Positions 31,072-40,552 of a stretch of DNA of 64,000 bases are shown here, piece by piece. Source of the stretch: Leptotrichia wadei (GTDB taxonomy: Bacteria > Fusobacteriota > Fusobacteriia > Fusobacteriales > Leptotrichiaceae); contig NZ_AP019829.2 in assembly GCF_007990545.2 (NCBI RefSeq), positions 1,116,001 to 1,180,000 of the forward strand, written 5' to 3'. A model generated the notes under the pieces. The model saw nothing but the letters and a program-made list of their open reading frames with translations. It did no database searches and was not told the origin of the DNA. The first letter of the stretch is position 1; each line of letters begins with the position of its first letter. The translations under genes were made by a program, and so were the position numbers.

Positions 31072-32076
31072 TTAAATCTCCAAATCTAATTCATCATTAT
31101 TAAATTTAAAATCATCATCATGCAAATGCACTACTTCCAGTGCTTTCTCATAATTCGTAGATTTTTTCGAGAAGAAATCATGCTGTGTTGTTTCCACATT
31201 TAATCCATTTAACACAATTGGATTTACATTCTTCACTTCAAATTCTTCTTCAAATCCTAGATTCATCAAGGCTTTGTTCGCATTATAACGGATGTATTCC
31301 TTCACATCGCCTGTAAGCCCCAAATCACCATAAATTTCATCAGTATATCTTGTTTCATTTTCGTACAAGTCATACATTAATTTTTTTAGTTCAGCCCTCA
31401 TATCAGCTTTTTCCTCTTCGTTGAAAGAATTATATAATTCCTGAAACAATAATCCTACAAAAACTCCGTGAATCGATTCATCAGCTATGATTTTCTTGAT
31501 TATATCGCAACTTGCAACCATTTCTCCCTGTCCTGCAAGCCAAAGCGGTAAAAAGAAGCCGCTGTAAAACAAATATGTTTCCAAATAAACCGAAGCCGCC
31601 AGAGCCATCGCTATTTCCCTTTTTGAAGCCTCAGGATTATTCATTTTCTGATAATATCCGTCAATTTTATTAGCTTTATACTGCAAATGCGGATTTTCCT
31701 GAACCCATCTGAATGTTTCATTAATCTCCCTTGTAGACGCAACCGTTGTAAATATTGTCGAATAAGACTTCGCATGAATCGTTTCCATCATACACATATA
31801 TGAAAGCACCGAACGATTTTGTAGTGACTCAATATGATCAATAATTTTCGGCATCCCTGTATGGCTTTGTAGCGTATCCAACAGCGTTAATCCTCCCAGT
31901 ACGTGCAAATACGCCAACTTCATCGCAGGCTCAAGTGAATTCCAGCTATCAATATCCTTCGACGGAATATACTCCGTATCAATCCAAAATTGCTTCAAGT
32001 TCTGCTCCCAAAACATCTCCACATAATCATTTTCTGGAGTATTCCAGTTTACTGCCTCATATATTTTTTTCTCCAT
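31072..32076 (-). CDS. nrdF: Class Ib ribonucleotide reductase small subunit NrdF
   Basis: 334 residues. It provides the tyrosyl radical and dimetal (Mn or Fe) centre for NrdE. Metal ligands are visible in the helices: MMETIHAKSYS (ExxH), the EMVASCDIIKKIIADESIHG stretch with ExxH, and the conserved Asp/Glu and Tyr positions upstream. With nrdI present, a manganese-tyrosyl class Ib enzyme is likely. It is separated from nrdE by four kilobases of toxin-antitoxin and Abi genes but keeps the same orientation. RBS GAAAGGAAA. Confidence 0.95.
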   Translation of the reverse strand: MEKKIYEAVNWNTPENDYVEMFWEQNLKQFWIDTEYIPSKDIDSWNSLEPAMKLAYLHVLGGLTLLDTLQSHTGMPKIIDHIESLQNRSVLSYMCMMETIHAKSYSTIFTTVASTREINETFRWVQENPHLQYKANKIDGYYQKMNNPEASKREIAMALAASVYLETYLFYSGFFLPLWLAGQGEMVASCDIIKKIIADESIHGVFVGLLFQELYNSFNEEEKADMRAELKKLMYDLYENETRYTDEIYGDLGLTGDVKEYIRYNANKALMNLGFEEEFEVKNVNPIVLNGLNVETTQHDFFSKKSTNYEKALEVVHLHDDDFKFNNDELDLEI

Positions 32077-32156: not shown

Positions 32157-32453
32157 TTAGAATAATTCACTATGACTACCTGATGCTAATAAAATCAATA
32201 TTAATTTATCTTCAGCTATCTCATAGATTAATAACCAATCTGGAGTTATATGACATTCTCTTGCCCCATCATAATTATTGACTAATTTATGATCCTTGTT
32301 TTTAGGAGGAAGTTTTTCTCCTTTTGCTAATATTGAGATTATACTTTCTAATAATTTTAAATCTTTTTTCTGTTTTTTTAGATTTTTTAAATGTTTTTTA
32401 AATTTCCCAGTAAGAATAATAGAATATTTATACTCTTCTTTTTTACCCCTCAT
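32157..32453 (-). CDS. yafQ: YafQ-family mRNA interferase toxin
   Basis: 98 residues from the ATG at 32451-32453, which overlaps the end of the antitoxin gene by 11 bases. The catalytic set of the YafQ/RelE fold is complete: KDHKLVNN, ARECHITPDWLLIYEI, and the terminal SGSHSELF, supplying the His and Asp residues needed for ribosome-dependent mRNA cleavage. It follows dinJ in the usual antitoxin-toxin order. It is placed directly upstream of nrdF, 80 bases away. Confidence 0.93.
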   Translation of the reverse strand: MRGKKEEYKYSIILTGKFKKHLKNLKKQKKDLKLLESIISILAKGEKLPPKNKDHKLVNNYDGARECHITPDWLLIYEIAEDKLILILLASGSHSELF

Positions 32454-32733
32454 AATCTTCTCCCAAGACATCTTTAAACATATCTTCTGGACTACTGTAA
32501 GATTTATAATTTGAAGGATTTTTCTTAATTTGTTTAGCTTCTTCAAATGCTTGAGCCAATTCTGAATTTTCAGGTAAAGAATTTATATAAAATGGTATGC
32601 CTTTTTCTCTTATAGCTTGTTTCAAAAATATATTAATTGCTGTACTAAGGCTTAATCCTAAATCTTTAAATAATTTCTGTGCTTCTTTTTTAGTTTCTTC
32701 ATCTATCTTTATACTTGTATTAACTGTTGCCAT
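32443..32733 (-). CDS. dinJ: DinJ/RelB-family antitoxin
   Basis: 96 residues. The N-terminal ribbon-helix-helix (NTSIKIDEETKKEAQKLFKD, then LGLSLSTAINIFLKQAI) binds DNA and dimerises. The C-terminal tail (about residues 55-96) is acidic and probably unfolded, and would neutralise YafQ. Its promoter and a palindromic operator lie just upstream. Translation is coupled to the toxin through an overlap. Confidence 0.93.
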   Translation of the reverse strand: MATVNTSIKIDEETKKEAQKLFKDLGLSLSTAINIFLKQAIREKGIPFYINSLPENSELAQAFEEAKQIKKNPSNYKSYSSPEDMFKDVLGEDYEG

Positions 32734-32757
32734 AAAATATCACTTCCTTTTATATTT

Positions 32758-32787
32758 ATTATACATACAAAGTATATCTTTTGTCAA
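32758..32787 (-). promoter_or_regulatory. dinJ-yafQ promoter with palindromic operator
   Basis: TTGACA (32782-32787) and TATAAT (32758-32763) on the minus strand are 18 bases apart. The spacer contains the inverted repeat TATAC-N7-GTATA (32760-32776), a fitting operator for DinJ. Fifteen bases of it (32764-32778) also occur at 11595-11609. Confidence 0.7.
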
Positions 32788-32808
32788 TCAATTAGTTTAT
32801 CATAATGT

Positions 32809-33757
32809 TTATTTATGCCAATCTTTCGGAAAATCCATTTTATATAAAATATCATTTATATTTATATCTATAATATCTTTTAGTTTAAATTCAAGTAAAC
32901 TTAATAATTCTCGTAACTTTTTTGTTAGACTTTCATATTCTTCTTTTGATAAAAATAATTTAAGTCCTTCGTATATCGTAAATAATTTTGTTTCTTATTA
33001 TTTGTTATACCTATAATATTATTTATATTTACAATATTTTTGATGAAAAATCGTACATTCTTTCATTATGTGCTGCTATGTTTCTAAATAATGAACTTGC
33101 CCGTAAAAAAGTTTTTATAAAATTATTATTTAATTTAGGTAAATTTGTGTACTCATTTTTATACAAATTTCTAAAATGGCTTATTATTTTATTTTGTACT
33201 CTATTTTCCAAAATCAAATAAAATCTGCTCATTTCTCCAAATGTAAAAAAATTAATTACTATCCAAAATGGTATATTATCTTTTGTTGTACTATAATGCT
33301 TTATTATACTATTGCTTTTGTTATTTCTTAAAAAATTTAGTTTTTTTACTAAATGTGAAATGATATATATATTTTCATTTCTAACTCCAACATAATAATT
33401 ATTAAGTTCCAAATAACTTTCTTTATTTGTATAACATTCCGAATAATAATATGCAATTGCCGTTTTAAAAGCTCTTTCCAATTGTGTCAAAACATCAAAA
33501 AACAACATTCTCAAACTTTTATCAAAATCATACAATGCTTTCAAATGATTAAAATGAACTCCCGATTTATAAATATCATTTCCATTTAAATCTTTCCCTT
33601 TTAAAAAAGGTTCTTTATAAAAATTTATGATGGAATAATAATTATACCTCATTAAATAATAAATTGTTTCATCATCAGTTTTTACCCGTAATTTACCTCC
33701 GTTTTCTCCATTTAAAATCTCAACTTGTTCCTTAAAAGTTTTAAATGGCTTATCCAT
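32809..33757 (-). pseudogene. Abi_2 (AbiD/AbiF-like) HEPN protein, broken by two frameshifts near the C-terminus
   Basis: The gene starts at 33755-33757 after GGGGG-rich and AAAGGG sites. Residues 1-242 carry the family's PFKTFKEQVEIL and RYNYYSIINFYK segments and an RX4H HEPN catalytic motif (Arg225-His230 in LFRNIAAH). The frame ends at 33029. The remainder is readable as NIVNINNIIGITNNKK in the next frame and then as KLFTIYEGLKLFLSKEEYE through to FPKDWHK and a stop at 32809 in the third. Two single-base-type indels, both in A-rich runs, explain this. The family mediates abortive infection. The truncated product keeps the HEPN motif, so residual activity is possible. A short strongly promoted RNA precedes it. 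Confidence 0.8.
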
Positions 33758-33787
33758 TCCCTTTCCCCCTTTTATCTCAAAAATGCA

Positions 33788-33873
33788 AAAAAGCCCTATC
33801 AAAATTGAAAGAGCTTTTTCTACAGTCTACAACAACGCACAGTTAAGTGGGTTATTCTTGTAGTACGATCACT
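33788..33873 (-). ncRNA. Putative structured RNA partner of the Abi_2 HEPN gene
   Basis: A consensus promoter (TTGACA-17-TATAAT) would start transcription near 33873. An intrinsic terminator ends it near 33788: arms 33810-33819 and 33788-33797, ten pairs with one G-U that fits only minus-strand RNA, then a T tract. The RNA of about 86 nt has no ATG. It can form a hairpin closed by CTACAA/TTGTAG (33858-33863 with 33827-33832). It lies 31 bases upstream of the HEPN gene start. AbiF-type HEPN toxins have been described with upstream RNA antitoxins, so this RNA is a candidate antitoxin. That link is inferred. Confidence 0.65.
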
Positions 33874-33879
33874 AAAATT

Positions 33880-33908
33880 ATTATACTCTATATTTTGATA
33901 TTTGTCAA
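33880..33908 (-). promoter_or_regulatory. Consensus promoter of the putative RNA
   Basis: TTGACA (33903-33908) and TATAAT (33880-33885), both exact consensus, with a 17-base spacer. One of the best promoters in the window. Confidence 0.8.
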
Positions 33909-34051
33909 ATGTAAAAAACTTTTATTTTACTAAGTAAATTTTGGCAACTCTCTTAGTAACCAATCTGATTAAATCTTTCAGTTGTTTCTTATATTTTTTA
34001 TATTTTCTTTCTATAAGTAAGTAATATCTTCCCTTGTTTTTTTATAAAAAA

Positions 34052-35110
34052 TTAAATACTCTGAATATAATTTATTACTATTATAGAAGTTCTTCCCCCT
34101 AAATTTTCATTATGATTATAGTATAATAAACTTTTATAAGGATATTCTTTTTCTGAACAAGTAGATTTAAATTCCATATATTTCTTCAATTTATCTAAAT
34201 ACATTTTCTCAAAAAGAAAATTTTCCTTGTTGATATTTATATTATTTTTATCCACATCATTAACTAAAAAGGCAATTCTAACTACTTCATTATCAATTGT
34301 ATTAATATATTTTTGACATTCTTTTTTCAAAATATCTTTATCTTTTTCTTCTATTTTTATTTTATCAATATAAATATTAAAAAAAATTTCAAATATTTTT
34401 ATAGATATGATATTAAAATTTTTTTTAAGATTTTCACTTATTATATTCCTGTAATAATCGTGTAATGTCACTATATTATCATAATATTTATCTAATAGCG
34501 AAATAATATTTATAGACTTCGTATTAGTCGGTATATCATTTATTTTCTTTATTTTTTTATTAAAACCTTCAACTTTTTTTAATTCTTCATACCTAACATT
34601 AATGCCAACATACGAAAAACTATCTTTTATATCTGTCTTGATTATTAAAATTTCTTCTATAATAAGTCCTTGATGTTGCATATGATTTCTTAACAATTCC
34701 ATTATTTGATATTCAATATTATCATCATAAAGAATATTAGTTTTCTTTTTAAATTTTTGTTTATATTCTGGATTTATACTATTTAAATCTTTTTGAACCT
34801 GATCTATATATAATCTTACACTACTCAAAAAATTAAATACTAATCTATTATACTGTATTATTTTTTTACTTATTAATTTTTTTAAATTACTTTCATTAGT
34901 TTGATTTTGGTCAATAATTGTATAAAAATGTTTTATTTCTTTTTTAAATTCTAAATAATTTTCTTTTAATATATTAAATTTTTCTTCTATCCATAAAAAT
35001 TTTCTACACTCACTATACATTTTTTTTATCTCAATAAAATCCTGTTTTTTTATTTCTAAAAGAGGCCCTACTGCACAACCAACTTGAGCATAATATTCTT
35101 TATTTTCCAT
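34052..35110 (-). CDS. Unknown protein with an RX4H HEPN-like motif, partner of AbiH
   Basis: 352 residues, ATG with a weak site, 28 bases after the abiH stop and so co-transcribed. The sequence is mostly helical and Lys/Ile/Asn-rich. The one striking motif is MELLRNHMQHQ (about residues 137-147), where Arg141-x4-His146 fits a HEPN ribonuclease active site. The C-terminus may be shifted. After a G5 tract (34095-34099), coding-like sense resumes in other frames to a stop at 33922, just before the promoter of the putative RNA. I do not recognise a named family. Confidence 0.6.
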   Translation of the reverse strand: MENKEYYAQVGCAVGPLLEIKKQDFIEIKKMYSECRKFLWIEEKFNILKENYLEFKKEIKHFYTIIDQNQTNESNLKKLISKKIIQYNRLVFNFLSSVRLYIDQVQKDLNSINPEYKQKFKKKTNILYDDNIEYQIMELLRNHMQHQGLIIEEILIIKTDIKDSFSYVGINVRYEELKKVEGFNKKIKKINDIPTNTKSINIISLLDKYYDNIVTLHDYYRNIISENLKKNFNIISIKIFEIFFNIYIDKIKIEEKDKDILKKECQKYINTIDNEVVRIAFLVNDVDKNNININKENFLFEKMYLDKLKKYMEFKSTCSEKEYPYKSLLYYNHNENLGGRTSIIVINYIQSI

Positions 35111-35138
35111 TTTTATAAATCACTCCTACTTAACTTTA

Positions 35139-36608
35139 TTATACTATTTCAATACAAAAAATTTTATCCATAACATTTTTATGATTTTTTCCTAAATATC
35201 TAGCCATGAAATGTTCTATTTCTTTTTTATGATTATTATAAAATTTATCTTTCGTTTTAAATATTAATTTTATATTTTCATTATCCTTTATATTAAAATA
35301 GTCAAAAATCTCTTTTAAAGTTGAATAATCTGCATCTGCTAAACTATGCCCAAAAAAGATTATTTCTTCAAAATCTGTTATTTCACAATTTTTTATCAAT
35401 AGTTTCCAATCTTTCTGTCCTTTTTTCAATTTTAAAAATTTTTCCAGTTCTTTTTTTCTATGGTTATTCTGAATTTGAATTTCATCAATTCCAAATATTA
35501 CTAAATCTGTTTTTATTTCTCCATTTATATTTAACATATCTTTATAATTAAAATGTTTATTAGTTTCTAAATATTCTTTCAAATAAGTTGTATAATTAAA
35601 ATTGATAATATACAGTTCATTATCTCCCATAATTTTTTTTATTTCTTTGTCTGAAATCTTTGGAATATTTAAATTTTCTACATATTTCAGAAAATCATTT
35701 TCAAAATAGTTTAAATATTCCATTAAATTAATAGTATATTTTTTATCAATATTTGATTTTTCATCATTTTTAGAAGTTAATCTTAATTTTTTTTTATCTT
35801 CTTTCGTTTTAAAATATAAATCTATTGAAAAAATATTTTCTAAAATGAAATTGATATATTCTATTTTTGTAATAATCCCATTACAGTAGCTTTCCCATAA
35901 TTTTCTTTCTAATTTACCTTGGTTATATTCCTTTGTTCTTTTTATTATTAGATAATAAATTAAATCATACCTTTTTAAAATATCATAAGAATAATTATAA
36001 TTTTTTAATTTTGATTTTTCAATAAAATTTTTTATCATATTTTTTATCTCATATTTTTTTTCAAAAAAAATAGATTTATTATTATTATATAAATAATTAA
36101 TAATATCAATTATGTCTTCAACATAATTTACAATTTGTTCTTCGATTGAATACCAATTTTCATACTCAGGTTCAAGAAATAATAAAAATGGAATAAATAA
36201 ACCAAATGAAATTAAAAAAGAGTTACTAAATTTTAGATTAACAAGAATATGACCTCTTAAATATTCTAGGCTGTGATCTTTGGTATGATCTTCTATATTA
36301 TTGTCTATTCCATTTATAATTTGTTTGTTATAATTTATCATTTTTTCTATTCCAGTTTTTATATCATTCACATCAATAATAGAATTATCATTAATAATTT
36401 TTTCTATATCTCCGATTATGAATGTTTTTAATGTTTCCAATATTTTAGATTTTAAATAAAACTTAGAATTTATTTCATTGTTTATTATAATTTCAATATA
36501 TTTTTTTATTTTAGTTCCAGAAGTATATTCAAAATAATCCCAATATCCAGTTTTTAAACCTAAATTTTTGTCAAATCCATTTCCTAATATAACTAATGAT
36601 TTTTTCAT
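35139..36608 (-). CDS. AbiH-like abortive infection protein
   Basis: 489 residues from the ATG at 36606-36608, after GGAGG; an in-frame TTG upstream is less likely. Family landmarks are the N-terminal nucleotide-binding-like LVILGNGFDKNLGLKTGYWD, the mid-C INFNYTTYL, and near the end FFGHSLADADYSTLKEIF. AbiH proteins give abortive phage resistance in lactococci; the mechanism is unknown. The gene starts 24 bases after nrdE and is followed by the RX4H gene, so it rides in the nrd transcript. Phage-defence function here is inferred from family. Confidence 0.82.
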   Translation of the reverse strand: MKKSLVILGNGFDKNLGLKTGYWDYFEYTSGTKIKKYIEIIINNEINSKFYLKSKILETLKTFIIGDIEKIINDNSIIDVNDIKTGIEKMINYNKQIINGIDNNIEDHTKDHSLEYLRGHILVNLKFSNSFLISFGLFIPFLLFLEPEYENWYSIEEQIVNYVEDIIDIINYLYNNNKSIFFEKKYEIKNMIKNFIEKSKLKNYNYSYDILKRYDLIYYLIIKRTKEYNQGKLERKLWESYCNGIITKIEYINFILENIFSIDLYFKTKEDKKKLRLTSKNDEKSNIDKKYTINLMEYLNYFENDFLKYVENLNIPKISDKEIKKIMGDNELYIINFNYTTYLKEYLETNKHFNYKDMLNINGEIKTDLVIFGIDEIQIQNNHRKKELEKFLKLKKGQKDWKLLIKNCEITDFEEIIFFGHSLADADYSTLKEIFDYFNIKDNENIKLIFKTKDKFYNNHKKEIEHFMARYLGKNHKNVMDKIFCIEIV

Positions 36609-36632
36609 TGAAAATTCCTCCAAATATAATTT

Positions 36633-39600
36633 CTACACCGAACAACTTATACACTCCTCAATAGTCGCCTTCCTAGTCCTAGTATAATAAAGCGACTTCA
36701 ACCCCAGCCTATGTGCATAAATATAAAGCCTAGCCAAATCCCTAGTGCTGTCCGTACTCTTTGTATACAAAATAGTCGAAATACCTTGATCTACGTGTCT
36801 TTGGATTACAGAAATTAGTTTCAAGATATTTTTTTGATCCATATCGTAAGCGGACTTATAGAAAAAGTAGTTGTCGTTTGTCAGGTATGGCATTGGGTAG
36901 AAAGTTGTGCTGTCTCCGTATTCTCTTACTTCGATTGTGTCAACTACTGGCATTACTGAGGCTGTGGAGTTCATTATGTAGGATGTTGACTGGTTTGGAG
37001 CGATTGCCATTCGGTAGGCGTTGTAGATTCCATGTTTCATTACTTGTTCTTTTAGGTTTGCCCAGTCTTCTTTTGTTGGGATGTAGATTCCTTCAAATAG
37101 CTGTTTTATTTTTTCTGTTTGTGGCATATATTCTTTTGTAATGTATTTGTCAAAGTAGTTTCCGTTGGCATATTCAGATTTTTCAAAGTCCTTGAAAGTT
37201 TGGCCTTTTTCCTTTGCAATTTCCATTGAACGTTCCAATGAATAGAAGTTCACCATCATAAAGAATACATTACAGAAGTCAAGCGCTTCCTTGCTTTCAT
37301 ACATAATAAAGTTTTTAGCCAAGTATCCATGCAGATTCATTGCTCCCAGCCCTACTGAGTGCAGCTCGTCGTTTGCTTTTTTTATTGACGGAACAATATC
37401 AATGTTTGTCAAGTCTGATACCATTGTAAGTGAATCAATTGCCGCTTTTGTAGCTTCTTTTATTCTTTTGTTTTCCATTAATATCGCAATATTTAATGAA
37501 CCTAAATTACATGAAATTCCACGTCTTATCGTATCTTCTTCATAATACGCATTAATATCTGAAACTTCTGATAATTGCATAATTTCAGTACAGTTCCCTA
37601 AAAGCATACCGTTAAACATTCCCATATGTCTTTTTTCTTCAGTAAAGCAATATGTATCGTAAACTCCATCAATTTCTTCTACAGCAGTTATTTTTTCAAA
37701 AGCGCAAGCATCTCTATTTGGAGTATGTTCCAAATCAAATTTCAATCTAAATGTTTCAAATCCTAACTCCACAAGTTTTTGTAAGTTTCTATGTGTTATA
37801 AGTAATCTATATAATGGCTTACATTCAAATTTTCCACATTCATCTGTTCCATTATTTAATGGCAGTTCTCTAATTTCAGTATCTCGCATTTTATTTATTT
37901 TTGAAAGAATACCAATTTCTTGAAGCAACAATCTAGTATTAGAAAGAAATTCTAAATTTGTTGAAGCTATTTGTAATGAATTATTTCCATTATTTTTTGA
38001 AACAGTGCCATCTGCATCTGCCAATCCGCTTAACCATTTAACAATACTTGAAATTTCATAGTTAAAAGGTACAAAAAATTTATCTTTCAGTCCCTTACAA
38101 TAATTCAAAATTATTCTATCTTCATTTTCTGATTTACTGTATTCTAAATTATCAAATTTATCTAAAAGTTCTTTTTTTTCTCCATACAAATAAATCATTT
38201 TATTTGTAAGATTTTTTCTGTCTTTCACATCATATTCGCAACCATCACCTGAATAAAATCCATTTGCATAAGCATTTTCAAGTATTTCACGATTTTTATT
38301 TTCATACTTTGGCAAATCAAATTTTATAAGTCTGTCTCCAACTTTAAGTTCGTGCGCTCTTTTTTCAACAACTTTTTCATTTTCATCTTTAATATAAAAT
38401 TTGTGATATGGTGTTACATCTACAGTTTGAAAATTGTCTGTACTAACTTTTAATAACTTTTGATCAGTTCCTGTTTTAATAACTGTAGTTTTACTCCATT
38501 CTTCTCCATTCCAAACATGAACTTTTTCATTTTCATGCTGTCCAATTTCTGTATAACCGTATTCTTTTGTTAAAATTTTTGTACACGGAGCAACACACAA
38601 ATTTGAGAATTTAACTGCTCCAATCTCTTTCAAAGCATGTTCTTTATTTGCATTATCTTTAAAGAACAAATAAGGGTATCCGCTTTCTTTTTGCGTTTGA
38701 GAAATTTTTACAAGAAGTTCCCTTGCGTTTATTTTTTTCTTTTTAACATTTGGATTATCAACCAGTTTTTCATACATTTCGTTCATATCCATTTCATCCA
38801 AGTATTGTCCATATTCTAGGAATACTGTGTGTGGATTAAATGTATAGCAAACTTCATCTTCCATCGCTAATTGCATAAATTTATCTGGAACGATAACTCC
38901 AATTGATAGTGATTTTATTCTAATTTTTTCATCAACATTTATTTTTTTACTATCTAAAAATTCGTTAATGTCTGAGTGAAATACGTTCAAGTAAACTGCC
39001 CCAGCTCCAGCTCTTTGTCCCAATTGATTTGCATAAGAAAAAATATCTTCCAAAATTTTCATAATTGGTAAAACTCCAGAGGCCCTACCTTCTACACCTT
39101 TTATAGCTTCACCTCTTGCTCTAATTTTAGACAAGTTAATCGCAACTCCTCCACCAATTGAAGACAATTTCATAGATGAGTCAAAAATATATCCAATTCC
39201 ACTCAAATTATCTCCCATTTCATCTAAAAAGCAAGAAACAAGTTCTCCCGATCTTTTTTTCCCAGAATTCAAAAAAGTAGGAGTAGCTGGTTGATACTCT
39301 TGATTTATTAACATCAAAGCATATTCTTTTGCTTTCTCAAAATTTCCTTGTGCCAAATACAACGAAACAGCTGAAACTCTATCCTCATATCTCTCCAAAA
39401 ACTTCTCACCAGTGTCATCCATCAACGCATAACTTTGATAAAATTTCGAAGCACTCATAAATGAAGCGAATCTAAATTTCTTATCATAAACCATTTTAAA
39501 AAGCTCTTTAATTTCATCATGACTATACATTTTATAGAAGTCAATATAGTAGTCATTTTTTATCAAATATCTCATTTTTTCTTCTAAATTATGAAAAAAC

Positions 39601-39737
39601 ACAGTATTTTTATTTACATAATCCACAAAATATGAATAAACAGCTTCTTTATCCTTCTCAAGCTGAAAATCTTCACCTTTTTTAACCATTATTTCATTAT
39701 TTAAGTATATCCACTTTTTAGCTCTATTATCAACCAT
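36633..39737 (-). CDS. nrdE: Class Ib ribonucleotide reductase large subunit NrdE with an intein
   Basis: 1034 residues in one frame. The exteins (1-380 and 716-1034; 699 residues together) are a normal NrdE. They contain the ATPTFLNSG stretch, GGGVAINLSKIRARG, the active-site NLC-TE (Cys716 equals Escherichia coli NrdA Cys439), ISCNLGSLNI, SVMPVVDTIEV, and the C-terminal redox pair ECISCSV. The intein occupies 381-715 and must splice for activity because it separates Leu380 from the radical cysteine. It reduces ribonucleoside diphosphates with NrdF. It lies 18 bases after nrdI and just before abiH. Confidence 0.95.
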   Translation of the reverse strand: MVDNRAKKWIYLNNEIMVKKGEDFQLEKDKEAVYSYFVDYVNKNTVFFHNLEEKMRYLIKNDYYIDFYKMYSHDEIKELFKMVYDKKFRFASFMSASKFYQSYALMDDTGEKFLERYEDRVSAVSLYLAQGNFEKAKEYALMLINQEYQPATPTFLNSGKKRSGELVSCFLDEMGDNLSGIGYIFDSSMKLSSIGGGVAINLSKIRARGEAIKGVEGRASGVLPIMKILEDIFSYANQLGQRAGAGAVYLNVFHSDINEFLDSKKINVDEKIRIKSLSIGVIVPDKFMQLAMEDEVCYTFNPHTVFLEYGQYLDEMDMNEMYEKLVDNPNVKKKKINARELLVKISQTQKESGYPYLFFKDNANKEHALKEIGAVKFSNLCVAPCTKILTKEYGYTEIGQHENEKVHVWNGEEWSKTTVIKTGTDQKLLKVSTDNFQTVDVTPYHKFYIKDENEKVVEKRAHELKVGDRLIKFDLPKYENKNREILENAYANGFYSGDGCEYDVKDRKNLTNKMIYLYGEKKELLDKFDNLEYSKSENEDRIILNYCKGLKDKFFVPFNYEISSIVKWLSGLADADGTVSKNNGNNSLQIASTNLEFLSNTRLLLQEIGILSKINKMRDTEIRELPLNNGTDECGKFECKPLYRLLITHRNLQKLVELGFETFRLKFDLEHTPNRDACAFEKITAVEEIDGVYDTYCFTEEKRHMGMFNGMLLGNCTEIMQLSEVSDINAYYEEDTIRRGISCNLGSLNIAILMENKRIKEATKAAIDSLTMVSDLTNIDIVPSIKKANDELHSVGLGAMNLHGYLAKNFIMYESKEALDFCNVFFMMVNFYSLERSMEIAKEKGQTFKDFEKSEYANGNYFDKYITKEYMPQTEKIKQLFEGIYIPTKEDWANLKEQVMKHGIYNAYRMAIAPNQSTSYIMNSTASVMPVVDTIEVREYGDSTTFYPMPYLTNDNYFFYKSAYDMDQKNILKLISVIQRHVDQGISTILYTKSTDSTRDLARLYIYAHRLGLKSLYYTRTRKATIEECISCSV
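37593..38597 (-). other. LAGLIDADG intein in NrdE (335 residues)
   Basis: Residues 381-715 of NrdE. Block A begins at Cys381 (CVAPCTKILTKEYG). Block B is VDVTPYHKFYI with the TxxH catalytic pair (Thr442, His445). Two dodecapeptide motifs mark a DOD homing endonuclease (NGFYSGDG about 492-499; LSGLADADG about 569-577). Block F is VYDTYCFTEEKRHMGMFNG, ending LLGN715 before Cys+1. The penultimate residue is Gly where most inteins have His. Insertion is exactly at the conserved SNL/CxE active site, the most conserved point for homing. Confidence 0.93.
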
Positions 39738-39754: not shown

Positions 39755-40132
39755 TTATTTATAATTATTTTCCAGATAATTTATATAATTTTCCACTTCC
39801 GTATTAGTTCCCGACAATTCAAATTTCATTAAAACTGGAATTCCATATTTTTCCTGAATTTTATCAGCCGCTACTGCGAAAAATTGTCCCCAGTTTCTGT
39901 TTCCGCTGGAACTTACTGATTTTAATAGTTTACTGTTGTTTTCGTTTTGTAAAAATTCGTCTGTTGTTGTTGGAATTTCTCCAATTTTTGTTGTGAATGT
40001 CAGAAAATGCCCTTCGTTTTTGATTATCATAGTTGGATTTATTTTTATAAAATGCCAGTCTGGACGTTGTGATTGCATTTTTTTTATAAACCGCTCAACA
40101 TTTCCTGTTTTTGAATCATAATATATATACAT
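39755..40132 (-). CDS. nrdI: NrdI flavoprotein
   Basis: 125 residues from the ATG at 40130-40132, preceded by AAGGTG; an ATG eight codons upstream is less likely. Flavodoxin-like NrdI supplies an oxidant to assemble the Mn-tyrosyl cofactor of NrdF. Seen are YYDSKTGNVERFIKK for FMN phosphate binding, the TTKIGEIPTTTDEFL loop and VSSSGNRNWGQFF. It sits between the nrdH-like gene and nrdE. Confidence 0.92.
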   Translation of the reverse strand: MYIYYDSKTGNVERFIKKMQSQRPDWHFIKINPTMIIKNEGHFLTFTTKIGEIPTTTDEFLQNENNSKLLKSVSSSGNRNWGQFFAVAADKIQEKYGIPVLMKFELSGTNTEVENYINYLENNYK

Positions 40133-40312
40133 TGATTTCACCTTGCTTTTTGGCATTTATTCTATTTTTGACTGAATAAATGGCTAAAATTTTGTTTTGT
40201 TTTCCAAATTTTGACATAAAATATACTCAAAACTGAATATTTTAATAAAAATTGTTTTGAGTAGTATTATTAATTAATTTAAATTGTATTATTAGCTCAA
40301 ATTATTTTTTAA

Positions 40313-40552
40313 TTACATCATTGAAATAATTTCATTAATTTCTTCCGGCTTGAATCCAATTGTTCTTTTCACTTCTTCGTTTTCTTCAAATAAAATTACT
40401 GTTGGAACACTTCTCACTCTATATTTTACAGCCAATTCCGGATTATCAAAGGGATTTATTCTTTCATATTCTACACCTTTTTTATCTAATAAGTCCGACA
40501 CCATTGCACATGGGTTACAGTCATTTTTTTCAAATTTCACTAATTTTTTCAT
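40313..40552 (-). CDS. nrdH: NrdH-like thioredoxin/glutaredoxin
   Basis: 79 residues with a redox CNPC motif (Cys12-Cys15) and a cis-proline segment SVPTVILFEENEE (about residues 48-60). The small size and position as first gene of the nrd cluster suggest it recycles NrdE, as NrdH does. The active site differs from the usual CVQC/CxxC of NrdH, so a generic thioredoxin-like role cannot be excluded. ATG after GGAG, about 50 bases downstream of the NrdR box. Confidence 0.75.
   Translation of the reverse strand: MKKLVKFEKNDCNPCAMVSDLLDKKGVEYERINPFDNPELAVKYRVRSVPTVILFEENEEVKRTIGFKPEEINEIISMM

Follow-up and report, generated by a model that had tools for sequence, protein, structure and literature searches.

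A probable mobile class 1 intein at the catalytic cysteine of a chromosomal class Ib ribonucleotide reductase gene in Leptotrichia

The window considered here is a 64,000 nt stretch of the Leptotrichia wadei genome (NZ_AP019829.2, positions 1,116,001 to 1,180,000), in which the class Ib ribonucleotide reductase (RNR) genes lie on the reverse strand (Table 1). Its nrdE is a single intact ORF of 1034 codons, scoring 996 bits with the NrdE family TIGR04170 (cut-off 750), with the match split into two pieces that both end at an insert. The class Ib assignment agrees with the nearby nrdI and nrdF, and the nrdH-I-E-F set is complete across the genus. At the NrdH position the window encodes a 79 aa thioredoxin-like protein (KNDCNPCAM) with an NrdH score of 32.6, vs. 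a cut-off of 85.75. A genome search found one copy of NrdE in the window strain and no second one. Third-position GC is 0.14 in the insert and about 0.2 in the N-extein, and climbs in the C-extein, where it reaches 0.5 at most.

Table 1. Features of the nrd locus and its intein (window positions; all on the reverse strand).
Feature	Position	Strand	Basis or remarks
nrdF, class Ib beta subunit	31072..32076	-	profile matches
nrdE precursor gene	36633..39737	-	N-extein 380 + intein 335 + C-extein 319 codons; TIGR04170 996 bits
C-extein, starting CTEIMQ...	36633..37592	-	intein-free alleles of the genus
Right flank, ~35 bp co-converted in the second carrier (G014)	37558..37592	-	informative-site comparison
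+1 residue, catalytic (thiyl-radical) Cys of NrdE	37590..37592	-	aligned to 6CGL Cys382, 1PEM Cys388
Intein, CVAPCTKIL...LLGN	37593..38597	-	335 aa; Pfam, AlphaFold pLDDT 94.5, PDB Z 23.6
Penultimate Gly334 and terminal Asn335	37593..37598	-	family Gly 100/105; terminal Gln 67, Asn 38
Splicing domain, C-terminal half	37593..37697	-	residues 301-335; blocks F and G
C317, block F position 4	37647..37649	-	by register; Cys in 104/105 family members
LAGLIDADG homing endonuclease domain	37698..38312	-	residues 96-300; LAGLIDADG_3; dN/dS 0.11 between two carriers
Dodecapeptide 2 (block E), WLSGLADADGTV with D194/D196	38001..38036	-	motif reading and family alignment
Dodecapeptide 1 (block C), NGFYSGDGC region with D118	38238..38273	-	motif reading and family alignment
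Splicing domain, N-terminal half	38313..38597	-	intein residues 1-95; Cys1, block B T62, H65 (105/105 relatives)
N-extein, ending ...KFSNL	38598..39737	-	intein-free alleles of the genus
Left flank, ~60 bp donor-type in G014 (co-conversion tract)	38598..38657	-	informative-site comparison
nrdI, class Ib flavoprotein	39755..40156	-	profile matches
Small thioredoxin/NrdH-like protein	40313..40552	-	profile match below NrdH cut-off

The insert is an intein, with Pfam Intein_splicing and LAGLIDADG_3 both matched above cut-off, and is the only intein found in the window strain's genome. Its borders are exact to the base: 11 of the 13 genus genomes hold nrdE at about 700 codons without it, and deleting codons 381–715 in silico joins SNL directly to CTEI, just as in those alleles. 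The predicted spliced product has 699 residues (1034 codons less the 335-residue intein), the length given in an earlier note on this DNA. The +1 residue aligns with Cys382 of Bacillus subtilis NrdE (6CGL) and Cys388 of Salmonella NrdE (1PEM), numbers that were counted from alignments to the solved structures; these are the established thiyl-radical cysteines of NrdE. The earlier reading of a LAGLIDADG-type intein in class Ib NrdE, inserted exactly at this cysteine, is borne out.

The blocks picked out in the earlier note (A, B, two dodecapeptides, and F) are all present. Block B reads T62-P-Y-H65, and the intein has the residues expected of class 1: Cys1, Thr62 at B:7, His65 at B:10, and Asn335 followed by the +1 Cys. 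The penultimate His that is usual in this class, though not obligatory, is absent, with Gly334 in its place. The two LAGLIDADG motifs carry their catalytic acids (D118 and D194/D196), and LAGLIDADG_3 is matched at 56 bits. Assignment to class 3 was rejected, with Cys1 present and the W-C-T triad missing (F67 at B:12, C317, L333 at G:5). C317 was placed putatively at F:4 from its position at Asn minus 18, the same register as Asp107 with Asn125 in gp41-1. An AlphaFold model built with 69 family members (pLDDT 94.5, pTM 0.92) matches archaeal TliVMA inteins and PI-PfuI over its whole length (Z 23.6). A PDB profile search likewise ranks PI-PfuI first by sequence (E = 3e-13), and with these two values the intein assignment is not due to chance. 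Judged by sequence, the intein is complete, with all class 1 nucleophiles and LAGLIDADG motifs intact; it is real and probably active, although splicing and cleavage are inferred.

Relatives were found by tblastn in 329 phage records, including phages of Vibrio, Rheinheimera, Caulobacter, Staphylococcus, Corynebacterium, Bacillus, and others, and a pattern scan of IMG/VR gave 192 stretches, of which 80 were retained. A scan of genome contigs with the single intein protein as query gave no match, while one with the family alignment gave 16 bacterial loci, mostly in cyanobacteria and none in Fusobacteriota. The plasmid search matched only Nostoc and an SPbeta-like Bacillus copy. One weak match (G077; E 1e-3, 50 residues) proved not to belong to the family. 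The eight host proteins that were typed are all RNR alpha subunits (class Ia-like, NrdE, NrdE-prime, and one adenosylcobalamin-dependent), and in every tabulated newly fetched locus the insert directly precedes the same Cys. The window intein shares this defining position of the phage-type family, directly before the RNR alpha catalytic Cys. In an intein tree it pairs with its one Leptotrichia counterpart, and this pair, on a long branch, groups with inteins of Staphylococcus phages (support 0.95).

A residue table was compiled for 105 non-identical inteins at this RNR site. Cys1, Thr at B:7, and His at B:10 are invariant (105/105 each), and acidic residues occupy both the D118 and D196 positions in 98. 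Position F:4 (Asn/Gln minus 18) is Cys in 104, the sole exception being the SPbeta-like copy in Bacillus phage BUCT082, with Asp. G:5 is Thr in 90, Leu in seven, Ala in seven, and Ser in one; F:13 is His in 53, Gly in 32, Asn in 19, and Ser in one. The penultimate residue (G:6) is Gly in 100, Ser in three, Met in one, and Leu in one, never His, and the last is Gln in 67 and Asn in 38. Nine members have Trp at B:12, giving a W-C-T triad alongside Cys1. In two short members, the Nitrincola phage 1M3-16 intein (136 residues) and one other (L037, 239 residues), little or nothing of the endonuclease is left. In Corynebacterium phage Darwin a second RNR gene close to the first intein-bearing one is also annotated as carrying an intein.

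These counts bear on the penultimate Gly, which the earlier note took as a sign of altered Asn cyclization in this intein. The residue itself is as described, but with Gly in nearly all relatives and His in none it is no oddity of this copy. A mycobacteriophage RDF intein, class 1 with a penultimate Gly, splices completely; its Gly-to-His variant is slow, taking over 5 h to become roughly half spliced (PMC5050341). Penultimate His is dispensable in known class 1 inteins (PMC5050341, PMC4031507), a terminal Gln is functional in a viral RNR intein (PMC4031507), and splicing has precedents both among RNR inteins and among inteins with a penultimate Gly or a terminal Gln (PMC5050341, PMC4031507, PMC3653736). 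Given the family-wide Gly and the splicing of a Gly-type phage intein, Asn/Gln cyclization here differs from the textbook case, yet does so in common with about a hundred relatives. The His714 variant proposed in the earlier note may well splice worse rather than better, because the RDF intein is slowed by the same change.

In this family the F:4 Cys, the G:5 Thr, and in some members the B:12 Trp might make good the lack of a penultimate His through chemistry intermediate between classes 1 and 3, perhaps with C317 as a covalent relay. The window copy lacks both the B:12 Trp and the G:5 Thr, and this idea seems unlikely. If true, it would make the RNR catalytic-cysteine inteins a natural link between classes 1 and 3, something that an engineering study judged unlikely to exist (PMC7664689).

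Within Leptotrichia the intein occurs in two of 13 genomes, the window strain and G014, and no further full match was found among 98 genomes of the phylum Fusobacteriota. G014 belongs to another sublineage: its exteins share 91 and 87% protein identity with those of the window, and its intein 97%. The contrast is sharper at synonymous sites, with dS of 0.125 for the intein vs. 0.86 and 1.07 for the exteins, which places the sharing of the intein long after the divergence of the host genes. The nrdE of G014 resembles that of its sisters G010 and G012 almost throughout, except for window-type bases flanking the insert. Between -60 and +35, six of seven informative sites are donor-type, vs. 21 of 284 elsewhere (Fisher p = 2.4e-6, an optimistic value since these limits were set after inspection of the profile). 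Such narrow conversion of the flanks is as expected from homing, and these sequence comparisons provide good evidence that homing has been recent.

The window nrdE is itself a mosaic. On its N side it follows G002 and G016 (71 of 83 informative sites donor-like, 12 not), and downstream of the insert G005 and G013 (45 of 51, with six donor-like); the switch in ancestry falls between about -200 and the insertion site (p = 5e-18), with the native half judged from few genomes in a genus where nrdE and its neighbours often recombine. The intein-free G002 allele is nearly identical to both carriers in the left flank, and represents either the lineage in which the intein first arrived or a case of precise loss. 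The donor to Leptotrichia is not seen among the sequences in the tree, where the pair sits on a long branch, but a phage is the likely source, judging from where the relatives live.

Some changes could be read as the onset of decay. The two carriers differ at nine of 335 intein residues, and eight of these are in the endonuclease domain, as might be expected if the element still spliced but its endonuclease were dead, leaving only vertical descent and ordinary recombination. On the other hand, both aspartates are intact and there are no stop codons. Between the carriers, dN/dS is 0.09 over the whole intein, 0.11 over the endonuclease, and 0 over the C-terminal splicing part, indicating that both parts have been under purifying selection, and the transfer with its narrow co-converted flank is recent. 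A dead endonuclease is quite unlikely on this evidence, and the element at this locus is very probably a mobile class 1 intein of the phage-type RNR catalytic-cysteine family, residing in a chromosomal class Ib nrdE.

For such a mobile intein, a likely course of events can be outlined. After translation, Cys1, activated by T62 and H65 of block B, would form a thioester with the N-extein, which would then be accepted by the NrdE catalytic Cys acting as +1 nucleophile. Asn335 would cyclize, aided by the Gly-type C-terminus; C317 at F:4 and His324 at F:13 are candidate helpers, their roles being read from register and sequence conservation. An S–N shift would restore the catalytic Cys as a normal radical-site residue. 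At the DNA level, the endonuclease would cut intein-free nrdE around the highly conserved codons for SNL and CTEI, and repair of the break would use the intein-bearing allele as template. Its place at the least changeable codon of nrdE may both guard the element against imprecise loss and keep its target site conserved across many hosts.

It had been suggested that the intein makes dNTP supply dependent on splicing. Class III NrdD is above cut-off in the window strain and in all 12 other genus genomes searched, NrdG is also encoded in the window strain, and no NrdJ was above cut-off there. The suggestion therefore stands for the class Ib enzyme but not for dNTP supply as a whole. The presence of both an aerobic class Ib enzyme and a class III enzyme could invite a role for the intein as a redox- or oxygen-dependent switch on NrdE, in which a disulfide between Cys1 and Cys5 (C-V-A-P-C) would block the first step; disulfides with a catalytic Cys do make other inteins redox sensitive (PMC4031507). 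At position 5, however, the other Leptotrichia copy has Tyr and 87 of 105 relatives have Glu, which rules out the pair as a kept feature, and the occurrence in two of 13 genomes together with co-conversion fits a selfish element without a host role. Conditional splicing of this kind is very improbable. That the intein is a splicing-dead passenger, or that nrdE is unused and the cell lives on class III NrdD, for which the presence of NrdD and NrdG could be cited, can hardly be right given that all splicing residues are kept, nrdH-I-E-F is complete in the genus, and extein dN/dS is just 0.06–0.07 (a value that counts for little since the intein is recent).

The surroundings of nrdE are also variable. 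In the window (32157–36623) and in all 12 relatives examined (L062–L073), nrdE and nrdF are separated by 1.5–5.7 kb of differing DNA encoding AbiH, AbiD/Abi_2, Fic, a C5 cytosine methylase, a SMODS-associated NUDIX protein with an AGS_C sensor, and unknown genes. This gap inside the nrd operon has the appearance of a defence-gene hotspot. A 352 aa protein encoded in it (34052–35110), without a Pfam, NCBIfam, or PADLOC match, is a candidate defence gene of unknown kind. In G002, from another genus of the family, NrdE and Abi_2 are 97 and 96% identical to those of the window, vs. 70% for NrdH, 67% for NrdI, and 90% for NrdF, a pattern that suggests exchange of nrdE, together with the hotspot, between genera.

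Inteins in phage RNR genes are already known (PMC3653736, PMC10448857). Those of Vibrio phage ICP1 nrdA (gp203), SPbeta bnrdE, Corynebacterium phage P1201 nrdE, and Staphylococcus Silviavirus share the insertion codon, Cys1, a LAGLIDADG endonuclease, and Gly before Asn/Gln with the window intein, and are 26–49% identical to it over the intein (P1201 was compared by description only). They reside in phages or prophages, whereas the window intein is in a bacterial chromosomal class Ib gene. The intein-encoded homing endonuclease PI-PfuI of Pyrococcus furiosus (1DQ3), itself from an RNR intein, aligns over 308 residues with an rmsd of 5.4, but at 20% identity. The RDF intein, in Mycobacteriophage Bethlehem gp51, is likewise class 1 with a penultimate Gly, but in another host gene (PMC5050341). 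Class 3 MchDnaB1 (6RIX) shares the fold of the splicing domain (Z 18.4) and the F:4 Cys; unlike class 3 inteins, the window intein has Cys1, and Phe and Leu where the triad requires Trp and Thr. The Aquifex aeolicus NrdB (R2) intein is also a LAGLIDADG intein in an RNR gene, but between metal-ligand residues of the other subunit (PMC8772380). Within the incomplete literature covered, as titles and abstracts, no description of a Leptotrichia intein, or of one elsewhere in Fusobacteriota, was found; the few papers containing both words appear to be reviews or to mention them apart.

Among the genomes searched, this is the only intein of the RNR catalytic-cysteine family in the phylum Fusobacteriota, and its host, an oral bacterium, carries it in a chromosomal class Ib gene. 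Its interest lies in a clean homing signature in a bacterial chromosome together with a block F and G signature that extends across the family. With a near-identical intein in two sublineages, a co-conversion tract, and a mosaic host gene, a recent jump between Leptotrichia species appears to have been caught in the act. For the family, a presumed oddity becomes the rule, with Gly before Asn/Gln in all but five members, no His, and a near-invariant F:4 Cys, and the question of how RNR catalytic-cysteine inteins cyclize Asn or Gln without a penultimate His is made testable.
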